Assembly (NCBI RefSeq): GCF_003337735.1
Contig: NZ_QPJY01000005.1
Location: 142,265-206,264 of the forward strand
DNA: 64,000 nt
Reading direction: 5' to 3'
Source: Thioalbus denitrificans
Lineage (GTDB): Bacteria; Pseudomonadota; Gammaproteobacteria; DSM-26407
Part shown: positions 2,426-45,421 of the stretch, in pieces
Layout of the letters: every line of letters starts with the position of its first letter
How positions within the stretch are numbered: position 1 is the stretch's first letter
Notes under the pieces: generated by a model
The model's database searches: none
The model's input: the letters and a program-made list of their open reading frames with translations, nothing else
Told to the model about the DNA's origin: nothing
Made by a program: the position numbers and the translations under genes

Positions 2426-3487
2426 ATGCCCGCCTATCTGCCTTTCGAAGTCGTGATGGAGGCGCTGGAGAGCGGCATGCCGCCGGCGGCCGACGCCGGC
2501 TTTCTCGGCGCCCGGCTCGACCCCGCGGAGGCGGCGCTGGTGCTGCTGCCCGTGCCCTGGGAGGCCACCACCTCCTATGGCGGCGGGGCCAGCGCGGCGC
2601 CCGCCGCCATCGTCGCCGCCAGCCACCAGCTCGACCTCGAGGATGGCGCCTTCGGCCGGCCCTATCGCGCGGGTATCGCCTTCCTGCCCGAGGACGGGAC
2701 CATCCGCGCCCTCGACGAACGGGCCCGGCCCCAGGCGCGGAAGGTGATCGAGGCGCTGGAGGAGGGCGGCGAGGCCGCCGCCGAGCTGGCGCTGGTGAAC
2801 GGTGCCAGCCGCGAGGTCAACGAACGGGTCCTGGCCGCCGCCCGCGACGTGCTCGCCTCGGGCCGGCACATCGGCGTGGTGGGTGGCGATCACTCCGCGC
2901 CGGAAGGGCTGATCCAGGCCCTGGCCGAGGCCCATCCGGAGGGCTTCGGGATTCTCCACCTCGACGCCCATCATGACCTGCGCGAGGCCTACGAGGGTTT
3001 CACCGGATCCCACGCCTCCATCTTCCACAACGTGATGGAGCGCATCCCGCAGGTGGAGCGGCTGGTCCAGGTGGGCATCCGCGACTATTCCCGGGCCGAG
3101 CGGAAGTACGCCGAGGCGCTTGGCGAGCGGTGCCGGGCCTGGTACGGCCGCGACCTCTTCCGCCTGCGCGCCGAGGGTGTCGCCTTCGGCGAGGTGGTGC
3201 GGCGCATCCTCGCCGACCTGCCGGAGCGGGTCTATGTCTCCTTCGACATCGATGCCCTCGACCCCCCCTACTGCCCTTCCACCGGCACCCCGGTTCCCGG
3301 CGGGCTCAGCTACGACGAGGCCTGCTACCTGCTCGAGGCGCTGGCGGAGAGCGGGCGCCGGGTCATCGGCTTCGATCTCTGCGAGGTGGCCCCGGGGCCG
3401 GACGGCGACGAGTGGGACGCCAACGTCGGCGCCCGCATTCTCTACCGCCTCTGCGGCTGCCTGCTCAGGAGCCGGGGACTCTGCTGA
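2426..3487 (+). CDS. speB: Agmatinase/arginase/formimidoylglutamase family hydrolase
   Basis: A 353-residue ureohydrolase that would split a guanidino-type substrate using a binuclear Mn site. The metal motifs are present: GGDHS, HLDAHHDL and SFDIDALDPP. The ATG at 2426 is preceded by AGGAG eight bases upstream, so the open frame extending further upstream (antisense to the EAL gene) is not used. Substrate cannot be fixed from sequence. Agmatinase (putrescine synthesis) is the usual annotation, but the longer N-terminus and the sequence around CPSTGTPVPGG fit several ureohydrolase subfamilies. No speA neighbour is seen. Confidence 0.85.
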   Translation: MPAYLPFEVVMEALESGMPPAADAGFLGARLDPAEAALVLLPVPWEATTSYGGGASAAPAAIVAASHQLDLEDGAFGRPYRAGIAFLPEDGTIRALDERARPQARKVIEALEEGGEAAAELALVNGASREVNERVLAAARDVLASGRHIGVVGGDHSAPEGLIQALAEAHPEGFGILHLDAHHDLREAYEGFTGSHASIFHNVMERIPQVERLVQVGIRDYSRAERKYAEALGERCRAWYGRDLFRLRAEGVAFGEVVRRILADLPERVYVSFDIDALDPPYCPSTGTPVPGGLSYDEACYLLEALAESGRRVIGFDLCEVAPGPDGDEWDANVGARILYRLCGCLLRSRGLC

Positions 3488-3524: not shown

Positions 3525-4280
3525 TCAGGGGCGGGTGTCCCGGCCTTGTGGACACGCCGGGTAGTCCACCACCACCACCAGGGGCAGGTGATCCGAAGCC
3601 ACCGCCGCCGGCGCCGCGGCATGGGCGCGCACCTCCCGGACCAGCCCGGCGGGGCGGGACCAGACCCGGTCCAGGGCCAGGAACGGCCGGCGCGCGGGGA
3701 AGGCCGCCGGTACCGGCCTGGCGCCCAGGCGGCGGTTCAGCCGCCGCAGGCTGCCGGCCATGGGAATCCACTCGTTGAAGTCGCCGAGCAGCAGCAGCGG
3801 CAGTCCGCGGCGCTCATCCAGGATTTCCATCAGCTTCCCCACCTGGCGGCGGCGCTCACGCCGCCCCAGGCCGAGGTGGGTGGCGATCACCCGCAGGGGA
3901 CCGGCCGGAAGAACCAGCACGGCGTCTATGGCGCCCCGGGGCTCGCGCCCCGGCTCGCTGAGGTCGTGGCGGTGCAGCGTCCGTACGGGGAAGCGGGTCA
4001 GCAGGACGTTGCCGTAGCTGCGATCCGAGCTGACGATGGTGGGGCCGGGGATGGGCGTCAGCGCCGTCGCGGCCGCGAGCCGCTCCATCTGGACCGAATC
4101 GCTCAGGGTGCCCGGGCGCGAGTCCACCTCCTGGAGGGCGACGATCCCGGCGCCGGTGGCGCGGATGACAGCGGCCACGCGCCGGGGATCCCGTAGCCCG
4201 TCGCCGCCCAGCGCCCCGTGGATGTTGTAGGTGGCGGCCAGCAGGGATGGCTGGCCCGGTCCGGCGCCGGCTGCCCGCAT
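3525..4280 (-). CDS. Endonuclease/exonuclease/phosphatase (EEP) family protein
   Basis: 251 residues with the EEP fold landmarks in order: TYNIHG near the N-terminus, ALQEVD, LLGDFNEW and SDHLPL at the C-terminus. These are the metal-binding and catalytic Asn/Glu/Asp/His residues of the DNase I/sphingomyelinase superfamily. Its ATG directly abuts the TGA of the upstream PLD-VTT gene, so the pair is almost certainly co-transcribed and translationally coupled. In this context a phospholipid-related phosphodiesterase is as likely as a nuclease (inference). No signal peptide is evident. Confidence 0.85.
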   Translation of the reverse strand: MRAAGAGPGQPSLLAATYNIHGALGGDGLRDPRRVAAVIRATGAGIVALQEVDSRPGTLSDSVQMERLAAATALTPIPGPTIVSSDRSYGNVLLTRFPVRTLHRHDLSEPGREPRGAIDAVLVLPAGPLRVIATHLGLGRRERRRQVGKLMEILDERRGLPLLLLGDFNEWIPMAGSLRRLNRRLGARPVPAAFPARRPFLALDRVWSRPAGLVREVRAHAAAPAAVASDHLPLVVVVDYPACPQGRDTRP

Positions 4281-28656: not shown

Positions 28657-28787
28657 GATCCGTGTTCCGTTTTCGGTTTTCCGTCAGAACACCGGCCGCA
28701 CTATTACAGAATGATTGATGCGTCATGAGTAATCCGGGATCCGGCACCATCCGGAACACGGAACACGGAACACGGAACACGGAACAC
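28657..28787. repeat. Inverted GTGTTCCG / CGGAACAC word array
   Basis: The left part (28657-28683) carries GTGTTCCG and related words. About 70 bases later five perfect tandem copies of GGAACAC (28753-28787) end just before the hemW stop. The two sides are complementary, so the region can fold into a stem. Confidence 0.85.
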
Positions 28788-28797
28788 GTTCCTCACC

Positions 28798-30514: not shown

Positions 30515-30526
30515 CCACACCCGAAC

Positions 30527-30779
30527 TCACCACGAAGGCACGAAGGACACGAAGAAAAGACTGTTTATCCGCAGATTACGCCGATTACGCAGATAAAGTG
30601 TGTTTAAAGGCGCATCAGCTGACGCAAGGCTGCTCAGTCAGCCGGAAACCGCACCTTCAACAGATCTACAGTGGCCGTTGGTGAAAACCATTCATCTAAA
30701 AAAATCTGCGTAATCTGCGTAATCTGCGGATGGATTCTTCTTTCGTTTTGCTTCGTGCCCTTCGTGACTTCGTGGTGAA
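30527..30779. repeat. Composite modular palindrome (outer TTCGTG words, inner ATCTGCG words)
   Basis: The left outer arm (30527-30558) is built from CACGAAGG words. The left inner arm (about 30566-30597) is built from CAGATTACGC words. The right inner arm (30702-30731) consists of AATCTGCGT tandem words, and the right outer arm (30751-30779) is the reverse complement of the left outer arm, ending TTCGTGGTGA. About 105 bases of ordinary sequence lie in the centre. It fills the whole gap between the Sel1 gene and the rdgB stop. Confidence 0.93.
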
Positions 30780-36629: not shown

Positions 36630-36666
36630 GTCTGACTCCTGGAATAAATATCAAAAGACTTCGAAT

Positions 36667-36809
36667 GGACAGGATTTACAGGATTCACAGGATGTATTGC
36701 CTGTTCCGGACCGCTTCGGCAATGCCCGGCCGCGAACGGGGAGCGGCCGCAGTGGGGATGATTGTTCCAGGCGCCCTTCGTTAATCCTGTCAATCCTGTC
36801 AATCCTGTC
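36667..36809. repeat. Inverted pair of ACAGGATT word arrays
   Basis: The left arm (36667-36693) has three 9-nt units of ACAGGATT type. About 90 bases further the right arm (36783-36809) has three perfect AATCCTGTC units, the reverse complement. The pair sits between yggS and proC and can fold into a long hairpin. The same word appears at 24.4 and 45.2 kb. Confidence 0.94.
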
Positions 36810-36886
36810 TATTTCATTTGGTTCATTATCACTATGGCGCTGAATGGGGCCTCCAATGTCGCTGCCCGGTGGCCCGATTGCAAGGT

Positions 36887-45109: not shown

Positions 45110-45177
45110 AGTATCCGGCGAACCCCGGTGAGGTGGCAAGAGCGGTTCCCCCGATCAGCCCTCCGGGGCCGGGTTGT

Positions 45178-45400
45178 TCACCACGAAGGCACGAAAAACA
45201 CGAAGTCTGAACAGGCTGAATCGACAGGATTAACAGGATAGACAGAACTTGTACTTGATTGCTGTGTGCCCTGGTCGCCGGCGTGGGAACCGGCGGGGCA
45301 CTGCCGAGCATATTTGTCGCAGGGACAAGGAAATCCTGCCAAACCTGTCCGTATCTTCTCTGTTAGGTTTTTCTTCGTGCCCTTCGTGCCTTCGTGGTGA
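45178..45400. repeat. Composite modular palindrome (outer TTCGTG words, inner ACAGGATT words)
   Basis: The outer arms (45178-45205 and 45373-45400) are reverse complements built from CACGAAGG and CCTTCGTG words, the same as those at 30.5 kb. The inner arms differ: GACAGGATTAACAGGAT (45223-45239) on the left and a decayed AATCCTG...CCTGTCC (45332-45350) on the right. It lies between divergent-looking ends yqgE (5' side) and tonB (3' side), ending 22 bases from the tonB stop. Confidence 0.93.
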
Positions 45401-45421
45401 GATTTTCCCCGCGGCGGCGTG

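Follow-up and report, generated by a model that had tools for sequence, protein, structure and literature searches.

Nested palindromes of Thioalbus denitrificans share their arms with units that carry a GxxExxY gene and suggest an undescribed kind of tiny mobile element

The nested palindromes present in a 64,000-nucleotide stretch of the Thioalbus denitrificans genome (C5:142265-206264; the whole stretch analysed, hereafter the window) probably belong to a family of mobile elements as its non-autonomous, gene-less forms, the complete forms encoding a GxxExxY protein and nothing else; reading and cutting of the arms by this protein, as we propose, would drive the copying, flipping and swapping of the elements. 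Inverted arms bracketing small nuclease-type genes in several phyla suggest an undescribed kind of tiny mobile element.

Composite palindromes in the window and across the genome

Arm classes are named here by their repeated word: A (CACGAAG), B (ACAGGATT, ACAGGAT-type), C (CGCAGATT) with its variant C' (ACGTTGATT), and D (CGCCAAG). Arm alignments and the genome map define the element at 45177..45401 as a composite with class A outside and class B inside. Its left outer arm (45177..45205, plus strand), made of three CACGAAG-type units, and its right outer arm (45373..45401, minus strand) are 89% complementary over the 28 nt of 45178-45205 and 45373-45400 (TCACCACGAAGGCACGAA...ACACGAAG). The inner arms match the ACAGGATT consensus at 21/23 positions on the left (45223..45245, plus strand) and at 15/18 aligned positions, on the reverse strand, on the right (~45331..45353, minus strand), and pair with each other at 14/17 aligned positions. 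Because only 37 of 5000 shuffles of the left inner region scored as well, the inner palindrome of this element is real, but worn. The core that it encloses (45246..45330) is diverged in G001, another genome of the same genus.

A sister composite at 30526..30779 carries class A arms outside (30527..30558, plus strand; 30747..30778, minus strand) and class C arms inside (CCGCAGATTACG; 30567..30594, plus strand; 30704..30731, minus strand), and a single class B palindrome with ACAGGATT arms and no class A outside lies at 36664..36813. An earlier note on this DNA had described the outer arms of the 45.2-kb element as near copies of those at 30.5 kb, and its inner arms as belonging to the class seen at 36.7 kb. 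Both descriptions hold: the left outer arm is 93% identical over 28 nt to the one at 30527 and the right outer arm 94% over 34 nt to the one at 30745, and the inner arms, though worn, are of class B.

The same note took the two loci to define a modular repeat family, and such a family is seen across the genome map, its outer and inner arms falling into distinct classes. The class A outer-arm pattern, with at most two mismatches, occurs in 78 + 83 = 161 copies in the 4.14-Mb draft genome, class B ACAGGATT in 157 + 162 copies and class C CGCAGATT in 81 + 80; reversed-pattern controls gave 1, 0 and 0 matches, respectively, which rules out a chance origin, and the 161 outer-arm copies dispose of the possibility that only two copies exist as the result of a single local duplication. 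In 83 stretches taken around places among the matches listed, 138 paired elements were mapped, their spans including a few clusters paired over 400–700 bp. Insides were scored in elements of up to 420 bp, with both inner arms having to be recognised. A class C pair lies inside 45 of the 64 elements with class A outermost and a class B pair inside three; the 44 elements with class B outermost enclose a C pair in five cases and a D pair in one, and none of the 30 with class C outermost contains another class. The arms do not combine freely, a point that the note had proposed to check: they nest in an invariable order (A>B>C), with CACGAAG-type arms outside ACAGGAT-type arms, and these outside CGCAGATT-type arms. 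In an earlier map drawn less strictly, one-sided B(C) cases were more numerous and a single C(B) cluster appeared.

No relative was found among the other elements for 103 of 136 cores, the remainder forming 14 small groups, often of neighbours; the arms are thus a common frame around mostly unrelated insides of ~100 nt. Related core stretches align in inverted orientation in 18 cases and in the same orientation in 10 (shuffled control, 0), and often lie 1–4 kb apart. Ordinary amplification of one ancestor would not yield mostly unrelated cores, and this counts against the explanation that we prefer. The cores do not appear to be copies of genomic segments either, most being without a second copy in the ~714 kb compared; the 166 core matches outside mapped elements are of mixed kind, and several of the 40 inspected fall in other repeat families.

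Other repeats were encountered during mapping. Across loci L070, L071 and L072 (C2:622035-685834), class B arms follow one another at distances of ~1–2 kb, most of them one-sided and many sharing a strand. A separate family of ~225–275 bp, with ~35-nt inverted ends TAGTGTACTGC..CACTC, occurs at L055:13168-13439, L046:3676-3948 and L060:12745-13014, and in G001 at L278 (~2922-3143); one G001 copy has a nearly clean empty site in the T. denitrificans genome (L104:177). What appears to be yet another repeat family consists of short inverted pairs with GGGGACAGTTTACTTATTTC, at L084:10292-10389 and L055:35-155.

Inversion, replacement and loss in related genomes

Thirty of the 138 elements, those with both flanks found in G001 stretches, were compared with their orthologues: 15 are colinear, four cleanly inverted and one ambiguous, four have a replaced inside, and six are decayed, shortened or lost. 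The inversions (L104:6541, L104:1501, L119 and L091) involve the whole unit, both orientations being found at one place, and the clearest is identical at 287/292 positions after flipping, with both flanks in place. They are unlikely to be an artefact of two draft assemblies, because linkers beyond the 29-nt outer arm flip as well. The element counted as ambiguous (L100:12700) is equally explained by a ~0.8-kb deletion between two neighbouring elements. At L047:1455, L054:1501, L075:14198 and L103:6850 the outer arms are kept around a different inside; at the last of these, the inner arms are of C type (C', CGCAGATT-type) in one of the two genomes and of class B (ACAGGATT-type) in its counterpart. 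The exchange of inner modules that the earlier note had deduced from the window is seen at these 4 of 30 orthologous elements. The 45.2-kb element is itself among the six decayed or lost, its G001 partner being worn (arms 53/65 and 51/58). The 30.5-kb element was compared separately with L249, as its G001 contig ends soon after; the two differ by one substitution and, in the right inner arm, by exactly one 9-bp unit, with one unit fewer at 30.5 kb. Elsewhere in the window, a 37-base stretch (28752-28788) has exact matches at many places in G001, some of them 21 bases apart.

Arm change by whole 9-bp units, together with the closely spaced and more often inverted core relatives described above, speaks for host machinery acting alone: the elements would proliferate, flip and swap through recombination of their arms by RecA, or through template switching from arm to arm during replication, GxxExxY being a passenger or a cleaner of hairpins. 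We regard this as unlikely, since it leaves unexplained the gene found between arms at 62 of 74 loci, the tracking of the protein by the arm words, and the co-occurrence of the two across genomes (see below).

Gain or loss of a whole unit (about 425–450 bp) between adjacent genes is shown by two site pairs. Sphingomonas parapaucimobilis has a unit between fabD and fabG, and in S. paeninsulae, Sinorhizobium and Methylobacterium these genes are joined by a few tens of bases with no unit; Bacteroides finegoldii has a unit between radA and the next gene, where Parabacteroides has 13 bases. At these two inter-species empty sites no target-site duplication is evident, and a few bases are unexplained. 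Within the genus, no clean empty sites were found in the orthologous stretches compared, most differing sites not being clean. Of six further genomes compared with a Methylobacter locus that has a palindrome at a gene end (L136), one has that palindrome at the corresponding position (L397); the conserved gene end is without a palindrome in four of the six, L398 representing an approximate, not base-precise, empty site, and in the sixth (G369) the gene of this site was not matched.

The 15 colinear elements are identical at 3891 of 3928 positions (99.1%), compared with 96.8% for their flanks at 20–200 bp (p 7e-14) and 95.1% at 200–400 bp, flanks being summed over sides with clean alignment only. 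Such high identity fits selection, or else recent exchange through the arms. Elements also avoid reading frames of at least 200 codons, 14 of 133 lying within one compared with 489 of 665 random placements. Both observations would suit old host-maintained sequences, such as transcription terminators or nucleoid or regulatory sites, with a GxxExxY gene caught between two of them by accident. We consider that account improbable. An exact 27-nt class A arm is present in at least 120 contig stretches of a genome collection, mostly metagenome bins, from many phyla (Gamma-, Beta-, Alpha- and Deltaproteobacteria, Verrucomicrobia, Kiritimatiellae, Lentisphaerae, Planctomycetes, Hydrogenedentota, Gemmatimonadales, Eremiobacterota, Actinomycetota, Aminicenantes and Mariprofundus), yet only three of the 56 genomes that were searched as relatives, the host's own among them, contain the 17-nt arm core with one mismatch allowed. 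Host maintenance is also at odds with the mostly unrelated cores, with the absence of the whole unit in relatives, and with arm words that follow the protein tree.

A GxxExxY gene between the arms

The earlier note had advised a search for an associated nuclease gene, and a nuclease-like gene is present elsewhere in the genome, outside the window. Each of the five PF13366 genes in this genome is enclosed by inverted arms, those of four belonging to classes A (29 nt, 100%), B (31 nt, 90%), C' (36 nt, 86%) and D (29 nt, 100%); the fifth is bracketed by C-variant arms with D arms inside (L035), a nested element with gene remains. The genes in D arms and in C-variant/D arms are both partial, and the three full-length proteins all match NCBIfam TIGR04256 (GxxExxY; E 3e-39 to 8e-43, cut-off 35 bits). 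In the gene-bearing units examined over their whole length (425–560 bp), the GxxExxY gene leaves no room for a second gene of similar size.

PF13366 is present in 65 of 369 genomes of the host's class. Bracketing arms were found at 62 of 74 GxxExxY loci in the class (score of at least 13, checked by eye), 12 being without arms; the 74 comprise the host's own five, 29 from the class search and 40 more listed places, with the shortest partial matches mostly left out and one chance hit set aside by eye. The cut-off of this count is lower than that of the controlled test, where a score of at least 16 gave arms at 24 of 31 evaluable loci and at 4 of 124 shifted placements, some of which, at ±600/900 bp, may partly overlap true arms. 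The arms usually consist of three ~7-nt units near CRCNRAN, separated by 1–3 nt, with words including CACGAAG, CACAGAG, CACGGAG, CGCAAAG, CGCGGAG, CGCCAAG, CACGGAA, CACGAAA, CGCAAAT and CACGAAT; the class B word, ACAGGAT, does not fit CRCNRAN strictly. Of five genes on plasmids that were inspected, those of Bacteroides, Bernardetia, Sphingomonas and Gemmatirosa (Bacteroidota, Gemmatimonadota and Alphaproteobacteria) are surrounded by arms of the same grammar, and none were found around the fifth (Prevotella).

Genes of a second family, PF05635 (23S rRNA intervening-sequence / four-helix-bundle), are flanked by inverted arms at 14 of 25 evaluable loci compared with 2 of 100 shifted placements (L038, L039, L426, L429, L432, L434, L436-L438, L443, L445, L446, L448 and L449), mostly with ~7–8-nt periods such as GTGATGG, AGGGAGT and CAGTGTT, so that the architecture may extend beyond the GxxExxY protein. 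We found no open-access literature on armed four-helix-bundle genes. Armed PF05635 genes would be expected if some other gene encoded a protein that recognises the arms as targets and mobilises a range of short-period units, with GxxExxY as one cargo and PF05635 as another. That we think quite improbable: the arms of the two gene families differ in grammar, and the arm word closely tracks GxxExxY phylogeny.

The ~125-residue GxxExxY protein has a predicted PD-(D/E)XK nuclease fold, judging from the order of strands and helices, the D...ExK residues and an alignment with a Cas4 protein (Z 8.7). The best AlphaFold2 model, from five aligned sequences, has the order H-H-E-E-E-H-E (pLDDT 82.4, pTM 0.76), with low confidence over its final 11 residues; mean pLDDT was 49–67 in the four remaining models. 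Residues D67, E77 and K79 (E77-x-K79) and Q91 are invariant in the five proteins. Foldseek ranked the Cas4 protein SSO0001, lambda exonuclease and RecE at the top, none under E 0.001. The VIA-align score was 8.7 for SSO0001 (93 residues, 2.5 Å), and BamHI (7.3), Hjc (6.9; 85 residues, 3.4 Å; tied with other nucleases) and a XisH-type protein (6.0) followed with scores below 8, which may reflect shared arrangement alone. No solved structure matched the protein by sequence.

Similarity among proteins is correlated with similarity among arms (Mantel r 0.34, reached by 0 of 5000 permutations) for 52 elements of the 74 loci; left out were loci without arms or with weak or broken proteins, L350 with its chance arm, and L302, which holds the same element as L188. 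On a tree of 57 proteins, of which 49 rows were used (L188, near-identical to L031, and loci with unreadable words were omitted), the word letters changed 10 times at position 2 (shuffle mean 16.8), 12 at position 4 (19.3), 9 at position 5 (15.6) and 4 at position 7 (15.1), and the whole word 22 times (36.1); each variable position and the whole word changed less often than in all 500 shuffles. Genes located through the class A 27-mer alone in Verrucomicrobia and Methylobacter assemblies encode proteins 62–67% identical to the class A protein of the sister species and to one another, and these fall near the host's own class A protein on the tree; two further genes found in this way (an alphaproteobacterium and a Nitrosovibrio bin) are placed elsewhere. 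At the level of sequence, arm word and protein show long joint inheritance, from which we infer that the GxxExxY protein may recognise its arm word. Covariation of gene and arms would equally follow from simple linkage, which counts against our preferred explanation.

Gene and arms also co-occur across genomes. At least four copies of a degenerate grammar pattern are present in 34 of 369 genomes, and PF13366 in 19 of these 34 compared with 46 of the 335 others (Fisher 1e-7), or in 17 of 32 compared with 46 of 335 once the host's own genus is left out (1e-6). The absence of a PF13366 match from 15 of the 34 arm-rich genomes would follow from persistence of gene-less copies after loss of the gene, or from a weaker link than we suppose. 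In genus g155, one armed element used as query matched its own genome 99 times and two further genomes 66 and 8 times; in the two genomes with most matches nearly all were to its arms, many of them as facing pairs. A phage or viral carrier was rejected: no GxxExxY genes were found in 50,697 phages at the limits searched, nor in viral contigs by one patterned scan. Four viral stretches hold the arm, and 8 of 72,556 plasmids have GxxExxY genes at the limits searched.

Proposed mechanism and likeness to known systems

In the mechanism that we favour, a full member of ~425–560 bp would comprise two inverted arms, usually of three ~7-nt words each, around one ~125-residue GxxExxY gene. The protein would recognise its own arm word, bring two arms, or the hairpin that they form, together, and cut at or near them, whereupon repair may copy the unit into intergenic sites. 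Recombination between same-word arms during this repair could flip the element or replace its inside, and one word class would come to sit inside another, presumably by insertion, giving the nested composites of the window. Besides the unrelated cores and the possibility of simple linkage, several results above weigh against this mechanism: the lack of target-site duplications and of clean differing sites within the genus, the 12 loci without arms, the arm-rich genomes without PF13366, the poor fit of the class B word, and the absence of the gene from phages and its rarity on plasmids at the limits searched. A bolder form of the proposal, which we advance tentatively, is that a single ~125-residue PD-(D/E)XK protein reads a ~7-nt word, present three times per inverted arm, moves itself together with dozens of gene-less palindromes of the same word, flips them and exchanges their contents, through a word-protein recognition code of at least 15 words in several phyla. 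The association with arms gives the uncharacterised GxxExxY family a definite setting and a DNA target that can be put to the test, and explains a set of short interspersed repeats common to distant phyla; it would also add to the mobile elements a class with a very small coding unit (~425 bp). Arm words and protein sequences together offer natural material from which a code of protein-DNA recognition might be read.

Several known systems share part of this anatomy. REP/BIME sequences are intergenic palindromes in mosaic combinations with one coding family, the RAYT transposases, behind them, and in these respects resemble the present elements. REP sequences are short hairpins with a 5' GTAG, which the arm anatomy does not fit: the arms here, of 25–35 nt, are triplets of ~7-nt words that flank either a core or a gene, and the gene so flanked does not encode a Y1 transposase. 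Homing endonuclease genes are likewise small elements whose sole gene is nuclease-like, the nuclease cutting the empty site for insertion, but they differ from the present family, which has long, word-bearing inverted arms and gene-less multi-copy relatives. In invertible DNA switches, too, a segment between inverted arms flips in place; the elements described here are dispersed in dozens of copies.

MITEs and other small non-autonomous bacterial repeats (ERIC, RUP and Correia; reviewed in PMC2229807) are likewise short, intergenic and multi-copy, with inverted ends and a coding relative that has the same ends. Here, too, gene-less copies share arm classes with gene-bearing units of the same genome. 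The present family differs in that its coding relative has the predicted PD-(D/E)XK fold and no transposase domain in its short unit, GxxExxY being the only gene in the units; in that the cores are mostly unrelated; and in the set nesting order and the inversion of the arm classes. A search of the open-access literature by motif, family name and element terms found no description of this family of nested palindromes and GxxExxY arms.

The protein itself resembles Cas4 / RecB-like and Hjc PD-(D/E)XK nucleases in its predicted fold and in the conserved D67, E77-x-K79 and Q91, and differs from them in being known by name only, as GxxExxY, in its length of just ~125 residues and in its location between arms. 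In one published study, a gene next to a CRISPR reverse transcriptase was reported as GxxExxY by the authors' own pipeline and as cas4 by another tool (PMC8934634).
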